A stretch of 64,000 nucleotides of DNA from an uncultured Latescibacterota bacterium. Lineage in GTDB: Bacteria; Latescibacterota; UBA2968. A program made the position numbers and the translations under genes. How positions within the stretch are numbered: the stretch's first letter is position 1; each line of letters begins with the position of its first letter. The stretch is from assembly GCA_951812755.1 (NCBI GenBank), contig OX638329.1:2403339-2467338 (forward strand). Reading direction: 5' to 3'. Positions 42,717 to 48,257 of this stretch are shown piece after piece. Under the pieces are notes generated by a model that saw nothing but the letters and a program-made list of their open reading frames with translations, was not told the DNA's origin and searched no databases.

Positions 42717-43682
42717 TCACAATTGTTCGCGCACAAGAGATAGCAGACGCGCTTGCACTTCATTGACAGAGCCTTTAATCTCGCATCCCGATGCGAGGAT
42801 GTGCCCGCCACCATCAAATTGGCGGGCAATGCGATTGACATCCACTTTTCCCCGCGACCGCAAACTCACGCGCTGTTGTCCCAGCTCCTGTTCTTTAAAA
42901 AATAGTGCGACTTCGACTCCGCCAATTGACATTGCGTGATCAACCACCCCATCCAGATCGCCATTCATCTTATGCGTTTTGTGATCGACGTACAATGTGC
43001 TGATCTGTCCATTTTCGTGTAGCGTCAGGTTCGATAGTGCGAACCCCAGAGTTTTTACCGTTTGGTATGTCTGGTGCGAAAACATGTTCTCTGCTATTTG
43101 CTGTGGGTCTGCACCATGTGTAACGAGTTCTGCAGCAGCGCGGAGGGCGCGTTCTGGATGCGAATGTTTAAATAGCTTTGTGTCAAAGACAATTCCAGCA
43201 TATAAACACGTCGCGATTTCGGGTGTAAATCCCGTGTTACTGCGACGGGCATACCGGTTTATGAGCAAATAGATCAATTCACTGGCAGAGCTGGCATCCG
43301 GATCGATCACCCGTACATCGCTCTCTTCATCTGCATCCACATGGTGATCGATCACCAGCGTTTTGGTCGCAGGCCCAATCAGCTCCGCGACATCGCCAAT
43401 GCGTTTTTTCGATATCGTCGTATCCACCACCACGAGGCGCGGCACGGGGGTTGCCAGTCCAGAGTTGTACACCGATTCAATGTGATCATAGCCCGGCAAA
43501 AACCGATATTTGCGATCCGGCGTCTCGTCTGCCACCACAAGGCGATGCTTTTTGCTCTGCCTCGTCAGCCAATGGCTCAACCCCAAAAGCGCGCCGAGGC
43601 CATCGCCATCGGCATTCACATGCGTTGTTAGCACGAGTTCATCGCCTGAAAATAAAAAATTCAGAGCCGCTTGAAAGTTCAT
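42717..43682 (-). CDS. nrnA: DHH-family phosphoesterase (NrnA-like)
   Basis: A 321-residue bifunctional oligoribonuclease/pAp phosphatase-like protein. HVNADGDGLGALLGL near residue 20 corresponds to the D-x-D motif, VIDHHVDADEE near 113 is the DHH motif, and FDGGGHILASG near 287 is the DHHA1 GGGH. It degrades nano-RNA, pAp or cyclic dinucleotide products in the cytoplasm. The ATG at 43682 is chosen, with a second ATG four codons earlier as alternative. Between the EnvC-like gene and argF. Confidence 0.9.
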   Translation of the reverse strand: MNFQAALNFLFSGDELVLTTHVNADGDGLGALLGLSHWLTRQSKKHRLVVADETPDRKYRFLPGYDHIESVYNSGLATPVPRLVVVDTTISKKRIGDVAELIGPATKTLVIDHHVDADEESDVRVIDPDASSASELIYLLINRYARRSNTGFTPEIATCLYAGIVFDTKLFKHSHPERALRAAAELVTHGADPQQIAENMFSHQTYQTVKTLGFALSNLTLHENGQISTLYVDHKTHKMNGDLDGVVDHAMSIGGVEVALFFKEQELGQQRVSLRSRGKVDVNRIARQFDGGGHILASGCEIKGSVNEVQARLLSLVREQL

Positions 43683-43735
43683 TGTTATATCCAAATGTAC
43701 GCATCAATGCAAGGGAATAGCTGTTCATTAACGTT

Positions 43736-44317
43736 TTAAATCTGCTCGTGCTGGCGTTTGCGTTGCAATAAAATTTGCTGTCGCTGCTTCTGCGAACTAA
43801 GTATGGTATAAAGAATACTTACCCGTTTGCTTGCTGTTTGCAGTGCCTGGACATCCCGCTGGTCCTGATCCTTTAACCGGGACAAATACAGCATGCGTTG
43901 GGCTGCATCTCGTAGTGACTTTGCCGAAAATAATACCGATAGTATTCCCTGTCGTCCTATTTTGTATATCTCACGCGTACGTTGCGCTATCTTTTCCTCG
44001 CGATTTTTGAGTAGCGACTCGGCTTGCCGAAGCTGTCGCTCGGTACGGTGGATTTCATCATTCAGACTATTGATTTCATCAGCGATATTTAGAGATGTGT
44101 CCTTTGTTTTTTCACTCTCATTTTCAGGTTGAGCCGATGCTTCCTGCGGAGGTTGAGGATTCAAGTCACGCACTTTCAAGCTGTCCATCGCCGCTTGCTC
44201 AGCTTTCAAGCGCGTTTCCAACTCTGTTATTGTCTGCGCTCTTCCATCGGGTGGTAATGCGAGTAGAAAAGCTATGATATGCAATATATACACTGGTTTT
44301 TGCACACTATACCTCAA
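43736..44317 (-). CDS. EnvC-like coiled-coil protein lacking a LytM domain
   Basis: A 193-residue exported protein: signal peptide to about residue 27 (LLALPPDGRAQ), a first helix with a proline-containing linker (about 50-72), then long coiled coil (about 75-130) and a second helix to the end. The segment REIYKIGRQGILSVLFSAKSLRDAAQRMLYL near 112 is the hallmark of EnvC/murein hydrolase activators, which continue into a C-terminal M23/LytM domain. Here the frame ends at RKRQHEQI, right after the coiled coil. It lies three bases after ftsX, the usual place for EnvC. Confidence 0.8.
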   Translation of the reverse strand: MRYSVQKPVYILHIIAFLLALPPDGRAQTITELETRLKAEQAAMDSLKVRDLNPQPPQEASAQPENESEKTKDTSLNIADEINSLNDEIHRTERQLRQAESLLKNREEKIAQRTREIYKIGRQGILSVLFSAKSLRDAAQRMLYLSRLKDQDQRDVQALQTASKRVSILYTILSSQKQRQQILLQRKRQHEQI

Positions 44318-44320
44318 TGG

Positions 44321-45196
44321 TCAGGCACTGCCCTGCGCAATTTCTCTCAACATGCGGTTCAGGGATGCCCAACTGCCTATCGCGCCCAGTATGGTGCCTA
44401 ATACCACCAGACAGAATGCCAGTTCAATCGTTGGTGTAACCGTCAAATCCGGTACGCGAACAGCCCACCACGGTGATATATAAGCCAACATCAAGGGTCC
44501 CAAAAATCCACCGACAGAGCCTTGTATTGCCCCCCCAACTCCAAAGATCATCCACACAGTCGTATTTGTCGCGCCGACCAACCGCATAATCCCAATGGCA
44601 TCGCGTTGCGCCAGTACCATCAACTTGGTCGCATGGCTTACTGCAAATGCACACGCAAAACACAGCATACACCCAAGCGCGAGTCCAATTCCGGTGATTA
44701 CTTCAATAAAATGCTCTAAAGAATCCGCCCAAACTTCCCCCACATTTATACCTTCTACAGCACTATGACCGGTTACAGATCTTGCAACAGCCCGAGCGCG
44801 GCGCGGCATATTCTCACCGGGCGAAATGCGTACTCTGAGGGAAGCGGGCAATGGATTGCGCGAAAGCGCATCAACCGTCCCCAGGCCAAATATTGACCGA
44901 AATTCTCTGGCCGCCGCTTCCTGATCCACATACACAATTTCGGCTACCTCGGGCCTCGCTTCTAAGGTGCGTCGCAATGCGATTACGCGCTGAGATGAAA
45001 TGCTATCTTTTAGGTAAATGTCTATCTCCACCCGCGCGCGCAATCGGTTAAGTAGCGCATTCCCACTCTCGATCACCTGCCAAAAGAATCCCAATACCAG
45101 CAGCGATGCTCCAATAGTCGCCACTGAAATCACACCTGCGATTCCCGTACGCATCACCCCTTGCAACGCCTCGCGAAATACCAGCGACAAATTCAT
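44321..45196 (-). CDS. ftsX: Cell division protein FtsX-like
   Basis: A 291-residue membrane protein with the FtsX layout: one helix at about 18-40, a periplasmic domain (ARVEIDIYLKDSISSQRV, LSRNPLPASLRV) to about 165, then three helices. FtsX links cytoplasmic FtsE to periplasmic hydrolase activators and controls septal peptidoglycan splitting. Order ftsE-ftsX-EnvC-like is standard. The conserved coupling helix region (AQRDAIGIMRLVGAT) is present, so binding to FtsE is likely although FtsE itself is degenerate. Confidence 0.88.
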   Translation of the reverse strand: MNLSLVFREALQGVMRTGIAGVISVATIGASLLVLGFFWQVIESGNALLNRLRARVEIDIYLKDSISSQRVIALRRTLEARPEVAEIVYVDQEAAAREFRSIFGLGTVDALSRNPLPASLRVRISPGENMPRRARAVARSVTGHSAVEGINVGEVWADSLEHFIEVITGIGLALGCMLCFACAFAVSHATKLMVLAQRDAIGIMRLVGATNTTVWMIFGVGGAIQGSVGGFLGPLMLAYISPWWAVRVPDLTVTPTIELAFCLVVLGTILGAIGSWASLNRMLREIAQGSA

Positions 45197-45213: not shown

Positions 45214-45879
45214 TCAATTTGTAATCTGTTCAATGACCTCTTTTTTCAACTGCAATATTCGTCGCGGATACCGGTCCTGCAGCACTGCATCATGTGTCGC
45301 TATGACCACAGCTATTCCGCGCACATTTATTTTTTGAAAAATGGCCATCACATGCTCGGTCGCCTCGGGATCCAGATTGGCTGTTGGTTCATCTGCCAAC
45401 AAGACAATGGGATCATTCACCAGTGCCCGCGCAATTGCCACCCGCAATTGCTCATCACCCGACAGCATATCTGGATACGCATTGCGTTTGTGCAATAAAT
45501 CTACATCCGACAATATCGCCTGTGTTTTGCGCTTGATCCGACGCCGTGAAACACCTGTTACTTCAAGCGCGAAAGCCACATTTTCATAAACTGTGCGATG
45601 GTGCAACAATTTAAAGTCTCGAAACACCACACCCACTTGTCGTCGCAACCGGGGGATATCCGTTTTCCGAATCTGCCGGGAGTCGTATTCCCCCACAACT
45701 ACCATACCCGCATCGGGCAAATTCTCAAATATAATCAGTCTGAATAGCGCGCGTTTCTCCGCTTCTGTGTGTCCAGTCAGATAGACAAATTCGCCCTGAT
45801 TGATCTCTATGTTGGCATCGACCAATATCGGTTGACCCTGCTGCTCGACCCGCACGTTTTGTAATTTAATCACTGGCAT
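45214..45879 (-). CDS. ftsE: FtsE-like ABC protein with degenerate ATP-binding motifs
   Basis: A 221-residue ABC domain protein in the ftsE position. The fold is recognisable: IKLQNVRVEQQG, VGVVFRDFKLL, LSGDEQLRVAIARAL, IVLLADEPTANLDP and ATHD. But Walker A reads GHTEAEKR (residues 36-43) instead of G-x-S/T-G-A-G-K-S, the Q-loop Gln is Arg87, and the signature is LSGDEQ instead of LSGGEQ. Walker B and the H-loop His196 are intact. ATP hydrolysis would be expected to be weak or lost. The ATG at 45879 is the first in frame; a TTG at 45906 is possible. Confidence 0.85.
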   Translation of the reverse strand: MPVIKLQNVRVEQQGQPILVDANIEINQGEFVYLTGHTEAEKRALFRLIIFENLPDAGMVVVGEYDSRQIRKTDIPRLRRQVGVVFRDFKLLHHRTVYENVAFALEVTGVSRRRIKRKTQAILSDVDLLHKRNAYPDMLSGDEQLRVAIARALVNDPIVLLADEPTANLDPEATEHVMAIFQKINVRGIAVVIATHDAVLQDRYPRRILQLKKEVIEQITN

Positions 45880-45921
45880 GATGCACAACTGCGTCAGCAG
45901 TTCCAATATCCACTTTTTGAA

Positions 45922-46671
45922 CTATTTTTTAAGAACAAAATGCACCCTGTCCGAAAATTCTGTCGGCGGTGCATACCCAAATCCACCGTAAGCTCCTACT
46001 ATTTCAAAAGGTGATTTATCTACAATTTCTTCAATCGCCGTCAAAGAATAAATGCGCTGTTGATGCACTTCTTTGACCACTTCATCCGTGTCTTCAAAGT
46101 GGATATCAAATTTGTTGTATTGCACTCCCTTCTGGTAATAGCTGTGCCGTCGATATGAAAATCCATCTCCCGAATCTTCTGACTGCATATTGCTAAAGTA
46201 TTGCTTCGAATTGCTCTCTGTACAGATATCGACCACAAAAACACCGTTGGGATTTACAATGCGATACACTTCTTCCAGAGCATGCGCGATTGTTTCGGGT
46301 GACATCAAATAGTTGATGCTATCGTACAAACACAATACCGTATCACATGCAGGCAGATCGTCCAAATCGAGCAAATTGCGATGGTAAAATGGAATAGGAT
46401 AGTGCAACTTACGAACTTTATCTACAGCTATATCCAGCATTTCTTTGCAGCCATCTGCGCCCAGGACATCAAACTTCTGACGGTATAGCTCAATTGCCAG
46501 ACTGCCCGTGCCACAGGCCAGGTCCAATACGCGGTTGGGTTTGACTTTGTGGCGTGCGAGCAATGACGATACATAATGCGCCCAATGCACGTAATCTACA
46601 TGTCGCATTACGTAGTCATAAATGGTCGCCAGGCGGCTATAAGGTGTTGTTTTAGTATCGAATTTTGGCAT
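45922..46671 (-). CDS. Class I SAM-dependent methyltransferase
   Basis: A 249-residue methyltransferase. VLDLACGTGSLAIEL near residue 49 is motif I for SAM binding, LGADGCKEMLDIA holds the acidic loop, and CDTVLCLYDSINYLMS near 110 is motif II. The N-terminus PYSRLATIYDYVM is common in a small-molecule or protein methyltransferase group. The substrate is unknown. It lies 42 bases upstream of ftsE on the same strand, downstream of a terminator, so it may begin the ftsEX transcript. Confidence 0.85.
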   Translation of the reverse strand: MPKFDTKTTPYSRLATIYDYVMRHVDYVHWAHYVSSLLARHKVKPNRVLDLACGTGSLAIELYRQKFDVLGADGCKEMLDIAVDKVRKLHYPIPFYHRNLLDLDDLPACDTVLCLYDSINYLMSPETIAHALEEVYRIVNPNGVFVVDICTESNSKQYFSNMQSEDSGDGFSYRRHSYYQKGVQYNKFDIHFEDTDEVVKEVHQQRIYSLTAIEEIVDKSPFEIVGAYGGFGYAPPTEFSDRVHFVLKK

Positions 46672-46672
46672 A

Positions 46673-46703
46673 AAATAAAAAACGGCCAGCCCGTGCCGGC
46701 CTT
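46673..46703 (-). terminator. Intrinsic terminator after the S4-domain gene
   Basis: On the reverse strand GGCCGGC pairs with GCTGGCC (one G-T wobble) around ACGG, followed by TTTTTTATTTT. It sits two bases before the methyltransferase ATG. Confidence 0.82.
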
Positions 46704-46736
46704 TGCCTTTCTACTTTTTTTTGACGGGGTTGCGTC

Positions 46737-47009
46737 TCAAAAAAACTCTGATGCCTGTGCTTCCTCTCGAATAATACGATAATATTCAGATGCTTGCTTT
46801 CGCGATACATTGCCTCGTGGAATCGCCAATACCTCAAACTCTAACAGACGGTCGGAAAATGCAATGCACACTCTTTGTCCGACGCGCAAAATGCGACTCG
46901 CTTTGGCCTCTTGCCCATCTACTGTCACAATCCCATTGCCACACGCTCGCTTGGCTTCTGATCTCCGCCGGACCAGACAACACGTATTTAGATAGATATC
47001 TAATCTCAT
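46737..47009 (-). CDS. S4-domain RNA-binding protein (HslR-like)
   Basis: A 90-residue single S4 domain: MRLDIYLNTCCLVRRRSEAKRACGNGIVTVDG, then ASRILRVGQRVCIAF, the usual RNA-binding motif of Hsp15/HslR and YbcJ-like proteins. HslR recycles stalled 50S subunits with bound peptidyl-tRNA. It starts six bases after surA and ends at the terminator, so it closes that operon. Confidence 0.85.
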   Translation of the reverse strand: MRLDIYLNTCCLVRRRSEAKRACGNGIVTVDGQEAKASRILRVGQRVCIAFSDRLLEFEVLAIPRGNVSRKQASEYYRIIREEAQASEFF

Positions 47010-47015
47010 ACTATC

Positions 47016-48257
47016 CTATTCCAACCGCACATCCACATATAATTTCGCTCGCGTTTCCGCCAGTTTCTCGCGGAATAATTCCTGCAAACGCTCTTCTTTG
47101 GCAATTTGTTCTAATGCGGTCGCATCGTCATTGATTCGAAATAGATTCCAGCCACCTTCCAGTTTTACGGGCAAGCTCACCTCGCCCGGCTTGAGTGCTC
47201 GTACTACATCTGCATATTCAGGTGGAAGTTCAGACTTGGGAAAGTTCCTCAAAAATCCGCCGTGCGCTGCTGTTTGTTCAAAGTCGGAATGCTCGCGCGC
47301 AAGTTCGGCAAAATCCGCCCCGTCTTGAATCTGTTTATACAATGCCATCGCCTTTTGCTGCGCGATTTTTTCGTCTTTTTGCAATAAAAACAAAATGTGA
47401 CGCGCCCGCACCTGATCGCCCGAAATTTCCTCGACGAGAATAATGTGAAAGCCAAATTGCGATTGTACCAGGTCGCTCACTTCGCCGACTTTGAGGCTAA
47501 AGGCAACATCTTCAAATGCAGGCACCATGGTACCGCGCCCAAAAAAGCCCAGATCCCCACCTTGAGACGCGCTGCCAGGGTCTTGTGAGTATTCTTTTGC
47601 CAGTGCTGCAAAATCTTCACCTGCCCGAATGCGTTCTAAAACCGCTTCTGCCTGGGGGCGAATTTTGTCCTGCTGTTCTATCGATGCAGCAGGTTCAATA
47701 AAAATATGACTCAACGACACGGTATTTGACTCGCCGCGGCGGTATTTTTCTTGAAATTCCTTTATGTCCCGGGGCGACACACTGACCTGCTGCACCAGCA
47801 GGCCATACATACTCTGTTCCAAATACTGATTGCGAATTTGCTCCCTGTAGTTATCTCGCATCTGTCGCTCGGTCAATCCCGCTTTTTTTAATTCTTCGGC
47901 AAAAGCTGCTGCGCCAAACTGTTCCTTAATCAGGCGAATTTGCGCCCGCACGCTCTCCTCCACGTGCTCGTCATCTACTTCAATACTGTCTTCTCGCGCT
48001 CTGACCAATAATAAGTTGCGCTGAATTTCATTCTCCAGCACCTTATTAAACATATTTTCAAGCTCTGCCTGTGGCACGGTGCGCACATCAATTCTTCGAC
48101 CGATCAATTCCTGCCGCAGCTTGTTTTCCACATCGGACCGCAGCACAATTTTATCATCTATTACCGCTACTATATGATCCAATAATAGAGGCTCTGCACG
48201 CGCTACGCTCATGAGTGGGAATAATACAACCAACAAGTTGATAAACAGCGTTTTCAT
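47016..48257 (-). CDS. surA: SurA-like periplasmic peptidyl-prolyl isomerase
   Basis: A 413-residue exported chaperone: signal peptide to about residue 21 (LMSVARA), a SurA N-terminal domain (LDHIVAVIDDKIVLRSDVENKL), and two PpiC parvulin domains around SLSHIFIEP...GGDLGFFGRGTMVPAF (about 175-275) and ARHILFLLQ...HGGFLRNFPKSELPPEY (about 285-385). SurA escorts outer-membrane proteins. It follows a second PpiC gene and shares the operon with the S4 protein. Confidence 0.9.
   Translation of the reverse strand: MKTLFINLLVVLFPLMSVARAEPLLLDHIVAVIDDKIVLRSDVENKLRQELIGRRIDVRTVPQAELENMFNKVLENEIQRNLLLVRAREDSIEVDDEHVEESVRAQIRLIKEQFGAAAFAEELKKAGLTERQMRDNYREQIRNQYLEQSMYGLLVQQVSVSPRDIKEFQEKYRRGESNTVSLSHIFIEPAASIEQQDKIRPQAEAVLERIRAGEDFAALAKEYSQDPGSASQGGDLGFFGRGTMVPAFEDVAFSLKVGEVSDLVQSQFGFHIILVEEISGDQVRARHILFLLQKDEKIAQQKAMALYKQIQDGADFAELAREHSDFEQTAAHGGFLRNFPKSELPPEYADVVRALKPGEVSLPVKLEGGWNLFRINDDATALEQIAKEERLQELFREKLAETRAKLYVDVRLE

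Follow-up and report, generated by a model that had tools for sequence, protein, structure and literature searches.

A coiled-coil-only EnvC beside a degenerate FtsE in a Latescibacterota genus without canonical amidase: a putative disarmed FtsEX-EnvC scaffold

FtsEX-EnvC is a widespread cell-division system that ordinarily spends ATP to turn on enzymes that cut the wall. The described system closest to the locus reported here is FtsEX-EnvC-AmiA/B of E. coli (6TPI). In the excerpts of Cook et al. (2020, PMC7668044) on which we draw, FtsX binds EnvC at residues 114-128 and 141-160, a short linker helix is present in EnvC, and the constructs used place the restraining arm from residue 222 and the LytM domain at residues 278-419. 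An excerpt of a 2025 study (PMC12505981) describes how, on activation, the N-terminus of EnvC pairs with the restraining arm. According to the excerpted text of Du et al. (2020, PMC7343993), FtsE and the FtsZ tail mediate the localisation of E. coli FtsEX, which needs no ATP hydrolysis to bind FtsA and to recruit EnvC; hydrolysis is then required, and septal synthesis is otherwise blocked. The FtsE mutant D162N, whose FtsEX still recruits EnvC without hydrolysing ATP, is the laboratory state to which our locus can be likened (PMC7343993, excerpt). In the excerpted text, D162N, K41A and E163Q are single laboratory mutants that impair division or cell separation while the amidases are present. 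Because such mutants confound both roles of FtsEX, work in E. coli can hardly decide whether ATP is needed for anything but amidase activation (PMC7343993, excerpt). The partners of FtsEX vary by phylum and include PcsB, RipC and CwlO (PMC7668044, excerpt).

We analysed a window of 64,000 nucleotides, the whole stretch of DNA under study, from a Latescibacterota genome. On its minus strand the genes run in the order SurA-like, S4, methyltransferase-like, ftsE, ftsX, short envC, nrnA and argF, the last being named from a reading of its translation, and this gene order is common to the genus and its sisters (Table 1). FtsX lies between ftsE and envC, as expected, and matches the FtsX extracellular domain (PF18075, E 1.4e-14) and the permease domain (PF02687, E 1e-6), both over the Pfam cut-off; its match to TIGR00439 (E 5.1e-53) scores 180 bits, below the cut-off of 255. 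FtsE is similar over its full length to TIGR02673, its best NCBIfam match (E 2.7e-69), with a score of 233 bits that lies below the cut-off of 264.85. The first-pass annotation had placed nrnA next after envC, 40 bases on, and the spacing is 41 bases. In the genus and its sister G014, envC and nrnA are separated by a few to tens of bases; in G020, G012 and G011 (L042, L043 and L044) the distance is about 3.4-3.9 kb.

Table 1. Features of the ftsE-ftsX-envC locus, in window coordinates.
Feature	Coordinates	Strand	Remarks
nrnA, flank	42717..43694	-	41 bases downstream of envC
envC, short ortholog	43736..44317	-	193 aa; signal-like N-terminus and coiled-coil hairpin, without restraining arm and without LytM
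EnvC residues 134-153	43859..43918	-	aligned with E. coli FtsX-binding site 2 (141-160)
EnvC residues 107-121	43955..43999	-	aligned with E. coli FtsX-binding site 1 (114-128)
EnvC residues 48-80, variable P/S/E-rich linker	44078..44176	-	replaces N-terminal half of long helix I
ftsX	44321..45196	-	extracellular domain and X-lobe motif (EFRSIFGLGTVDALSRNPLP) kept
ftsE, degenerate ATPase motifs	45214..45906	-	probable ATG start at 45879
degenerate ABC signature LSGDEQL	45445..45465	-	sister genus: LSGGERQ
degenerate Walker A GHTEAEKRA	45748..45774	-	sister genus: GPTGSGKST
upstream flank: methyltransferase-like ORF, S4-domain protein, SurA-like PPIase	45922..48257	-	conserved gene order; SurA and methyltransferase named from translations

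The short envC reads as 193 codons from a TTG start, and its product carries an N-terminal hydrophobic, signal-like segment followed by a match to CC_PcsB (PF24568, E 1.4e-7, residues 99-164). No Pfam match to a Peptidase_M23 or LytM domain was obtained in the short protein, which bears out the earlier statement that it stops short of LytM. The EnvC of the full-length relatives and their FtsX match the E. coli proteins (profile E 5.5e-39 and 2e-34, respectively). The short protein is therefore orthologous to EnvC, as the gene's position had suggested at first pass, and its coiled coil is no chance resemblance. When site limits are taken from the excerpt of PMC7668044 and the alignment offset of 7 is applied to E. 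coli EnvC numbering, the C-terminus of the short protein falls at about E. coli residue 200, within the second helix of the coiled coil, so that the arm (222-277) and the LytM domain (278-419) as numbered in that excerpt are both absent. The P/S/E-rich linker, variable in the genus members aligned except G008, stands where helix I would have paired with the missing stretch of helix II. Thus, with helix II truncated and half of helix I replaced, both arms of EnvC have been shortened around the FtsX-binding tip. Conservation follows the same layout: among nine genus members, mean identity reaches 0.91 and 0.90 at sites 1 and 2, respectively, and 0.98 at the turn, and it is lowest, at 0.45, in the linker. 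An AlphaFold2 model of medium confidence (pLDDT 68) places helices at residues 64-122, 125-131 (a short one) and 135-192 and leaves the linker mostly without structure. A fold search with the hairpin returned EnvC 6tpi as its top match (E 1.2, not significant), and RipC fourth and fifth, likewise not significant. From alignment and model, the short protein is predicted to contain the antiparallel coiled coil of EnvC that putatively binds FtsX. PcsB, RipC and CwlO are likewise coiled-coil partners of FtsX, and the Pfam match of the short protein is to CC_PcsB; they end in an enzymatic domain (PMC7668044, excerpt), whereas the short EnvC ends after the coiled coil.

We searched 100 related genomes with the short protein and obtained matches in 23. 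Within the genus, EnvC frames are 194-233 aa long in all ten genomes in which one was found (G000-G008 and G010), versus 398-523 aa in all 13 homologs beyond the genus. A full LytM domain in frame in relatives, which would have refuted the first-pass annotation, is thus seen outside the genus and not inside it. The eleventh genus genome, G009, has no EnvC match and also lacks nrnA, so the envC locus probably falls in an assembly gap there. A frameshift or assembly error hiding the LytM domain, which the first-pass annotation had named as a possible undoing of its own claim, is ruled out by the recurrence of the short form at 10/10 genus loci and by an envC-nrnA gap of only 41 bases. Outside the phylum, 55 of 56 EnvC-like ORFs among the matches listed reach the LytM part; the exception, L288, lies near a contig edge. 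One genome, G020, encodes a second EnvC-like protein (G020:C80:564-1583, a 380 aa frame, E 1.4e-39) besides the copy at its ftsEX locus.

The neighbouring FtsE had been called degenerate, and comparison confirmed this, its P-loop reading GHTEAEKRA where the sister genus has GPTGSGKST. Neither the Walker A pattern GxxxxGK[ST] nor the LSGGE signature occurs in any of the ten genus FtsE sequences; nine share the P-loop G-x-T-[ED]-A-[EK]-K-R-A, and that of G008 is GQTSAETSA. The P-loop is intact in 15/15 other FtsE of the phylum, a comparison from which two rows were dropped (L045, incomplete, and L046, from another phylum). For a survey outside the phylum we took 80 FtsX loci among the matches listed, 11 of which had no FtsE in the stretch fetched. 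The remaining 69 FtsE all keep Walker A and Walker B; 12 of these 69, again among the matches listed, fail the strict LSGG pattern with both Walker motifs kept. Given that the P-loop lysine and the Walker B glutamate are each kept in 9/10 genus sequences, residual ATP binding is possible, and one could propose that ATP, bound at a noncanonical site of FtsE, still drives movement of the short EnvC, with some direct effect of the latter on the cell wall. We consider this very improbable, however, as the glycine preceding the P-loop lysine is lost in 10/10 genus FtsE, the Mg-binding Ser/Thr has become Arg in 9/10, the ABC signature is altered in 10/10 and the switch histidine is lost in 5/10. Of the columns that do not vary among the phylum's 15 other FtsE, 13/21 motif columns versus 6/26 other columns have changed in at least one genus member (p 0.016); under a stricter count, requiring change in at least five of the ten genus sequences, there is no significant excess at ATPase columns (p 0.49). 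One of these 15, the FtsE of the incomplete MAG G062 (L210:3095-3994), has DQP for DEP at Walker B, a naturally occurring replacement of the catalytic glutamate.

The amidase that EnvC would be expected to control was sought in 64 genomes, with canonical Amidase_3 defined by E <= 1e-40. It was present in 22 of them and in none of the 11 genus genomes. Calling the short EnvC an activator, as had been done at first, is therefore not supported. Among genomes with a full-length EnvC, 18/19 have the canonical amidase, a count that leaves out G051 (amidase present, EnvC a contig-edge fragment) and G062 (60% complete, a C-terminal EnvC ORF only and no amidase match). G061, 57% complete, has EnvC and no amidase match. 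Three of the 32 genomes without an FtsX ortholog match also have the canonical amidase (G056, G057 and G060), which may point to another activator or to missing contigs. Three further genomes without an FtsX ortholog (G024, G035 and G043) have intermediate Amidase_3 matches of 1e-27 to 1e-31. What the genus does have is a divergent Amidase_3 match (about 1e-14 to 1e-21), shared by most close relatives whether the module is present or absent. Loss of SPOR proteins alongside the amidase was considered and is not supported, SPOR matches being present in 30/30 genomes (1-2 in genus genomes, 4 in G011-G013 and 1 in the intact G014).

Conserved H, D and HxH zinc-ligand motifs are the mark of active M23 peptidases. 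The window's genome encodes four M23 proteins besides the envC locus, and all four keep these motifs; an inactive LytM activator is not apparent among them. Likewise, the EnvC profile found no other EnvC-like protein in this genome, its matches being to the LytM part of M23 proteins alone. A move of the LytM domain to another gene is thereby ruled out for the window's genome, and the suggestion that a separate LytM protein has taken over finds no support, as each of the 21 genomes scanned, from the genus and beyond it, has several M23 matches. At G008:C1:2659275-2659523, in the deepest member of the genus, there is a weak M23 match with an in-frame TAA. The four active-type M23 proteins and the one divergent Amidase_3 protein are nevertheless candidate enzymes for a re-purposed adaptor, in which the short EnvC would bring a different periplasmic enzyme to the septum without ATP-driven switching, and the differing FtsEX partners among phyla (PcsB, RipC, CwlO; PMC7668044, excerpt) lend this some plausibility. 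We regard it as unlikely: the divergent Amidase_3 is shared by module-free relatives and by most of the close ones whose module is intact, no gain of M23 proteins stands out in the genus (5-6 matches versus 6-8 in its family), and the short EnvC showed no surface for binding apart from its FtsX tip.

We built a tree from five neighbour proteins (1410 columns). The window's genus forms a clade with support 100, G008 being its deepest member, and the intact G014 is its sister, also with support 100. The sister locus (JABIFK010000698.1) is alike in position and gene order, and its EnvC is about 40% identical over the shared part; in contrast to the genus, G014 has a full LytM domain, intact FtsE motifs and the canonical amidase. 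In G015, G016 and G019, nrnA comes straight after the methyltransferase gene: ftsE-ftsX-envC is cleanly absent, and none of the three has a canonical amidase. G015 and G016 form a group within a genus in which the other members, G017 and G018, retain everything, and G019 stands apart; on this tree the deletions are two separate ones. An FtsX ortholog and a full EnvC are also absent from all 25 genomes of family f4 of the same class (G022-G046), three of which are those with intermediate Amidase_3 matches. Thus, amidase loss has been accompanied at least twice by loss of the whole module and once by its disarming.

Since relatives manage without the module, our main doubt is that the remnant may be decaying slowly or serving a new partner. 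Decay would mean that amidase loss made the module unnecessary and that the genus has been caught midway towards the clean deletion of its relatives; in favour are the clean absence from G015/G016 and G019 and the missing FtsX ortholog in 25/25 f4 genomes. Median pairwise dN/dS within the genus, with G008 left out, is 0.26 for ftsE, 0.26 for ftsX and 0.30 for envC, slightly raised relative to the 0.09-0.20 of five flanking genes, as decay would have it. These values nonetheless lie near those of two pairs with intact modules (ftsE 0.18-0.27, ftsX 0.16-0.18, envC 0.12-0.20), all three frames are open at 10/10 assembled loci, on both sides of the genus's deepest split (G008 versus the rest), and EnvC conservation is concentrated at the FtsX-binding tip. 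Selection on the remnant is slightly relaxed and clearly purifying, and we think it doubtful that the module is a vestige. Loss of peptidoglycan or of FtsZ-based division is ruled out: FtsA and transpeptidases were each found in 11/11 genus genomes, and FtsZ with a conserved C-terminal FLRR-type peptide was found in the two genus genomes read. Peptidoglycan division therefore persists in the genus.

Compared with FtsEX-EnvC-AmiA/B of E. coli, the genus is alike in having an FtsX with X-lobe and an EnvC hairpin with two FtsX sites, and it differs in lacking the arm, LytM and canonical amidase and in its broken FtsE P-loop and signature. The genus has thus lost the motor (FtsE P-loop and signature), the switch (EnvC arm and LytM) and the output enzyme (canonical Amidase_3) of the pathway, while purifying selection maintains FtsX, the fold of FtsE and EnvC's FtsX-binding tip. 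Unlike in the laboratory FtsE mutants, the loss is natural and genus-wide, and it is joined by loss of the EnvC output domain and of the amidase. The first-pass annotation had called the whole module rewired; the whole module is indeed affected, and "disarmed and kept as a scaffold" describes it better. That selection keeps the remaining parts probably points to a structural job without need of ATP. Our preferred reading, to which we give a probability of roughly 0.55, is that the genus gave up amidase control and kept the complex as a divisome scaffold that works without ATP and is capped by the EnvC hairpin.

On the scaffold reading, once the amidase was gone there would have been no conformational signal left to send, and ATP hydrolysis and the LytM arm would have been released from selection. 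If activation has ceased, loss of the arm and degeneration of part of helix I are what one would expect, and both are seen in the genus. The remaining role would be the ATP-independent one known from E. coli, in which contacts of FtsE with the FtsZ tail and of FtsX with FtsA help divisome assembly. The shortened EnvC hairpin may sit between two FtsX periplasmic domains and hold the FtsX dimer in one conformation, making the complex a static scaffold at the division site and not a mechanotransmitter. Several observations weigh against the scaffold, among them the kept P-loop lysine and Walker B glutamate, the lack of significance under the stricter column count, and the medium confidence of the hairpin model with its non-significant best match. 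The dN/dS values, somewhat above those of neighbouring genes, fit slow decay too, and ATPase-dead FtsEX blocks septal synthesis in E. coli (PMC7343993, excerpt). Unlike the ATP-locked E. coli mutant, the genus complex would be unable to block septal wall synthesis, given that proper ATP binding appears to be lost. An essential role for what remains is not obvious either, because relatives have lost the whole module.

In our searches of the open PMC literature on FtsEX/EnvC and on Latescibacterota, we found no description of a combined loss of motor, switch and enzyme. We put at about even odds the broader proposition that two FtsEX functions have been naturally separated here, a permanently ATP-independent FtsEX with a coiled-coil-only EnvC serving divisome assembly while EnvC-controlled amidase cleavage has been abandoned. 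If true, this natural separation would contradict the view from E. coli that FtsEX must hydrolyse ATP throughout septation. Having lost motor, switch and enzyme together while selection keeps FtsX, the FtsE fold and the EnvC tip, the genus is an experiment of nature in which the role left to FtsEX stands by itself, and the nearby lineages that are module-free and also lack the amidase provide matched comparisons.
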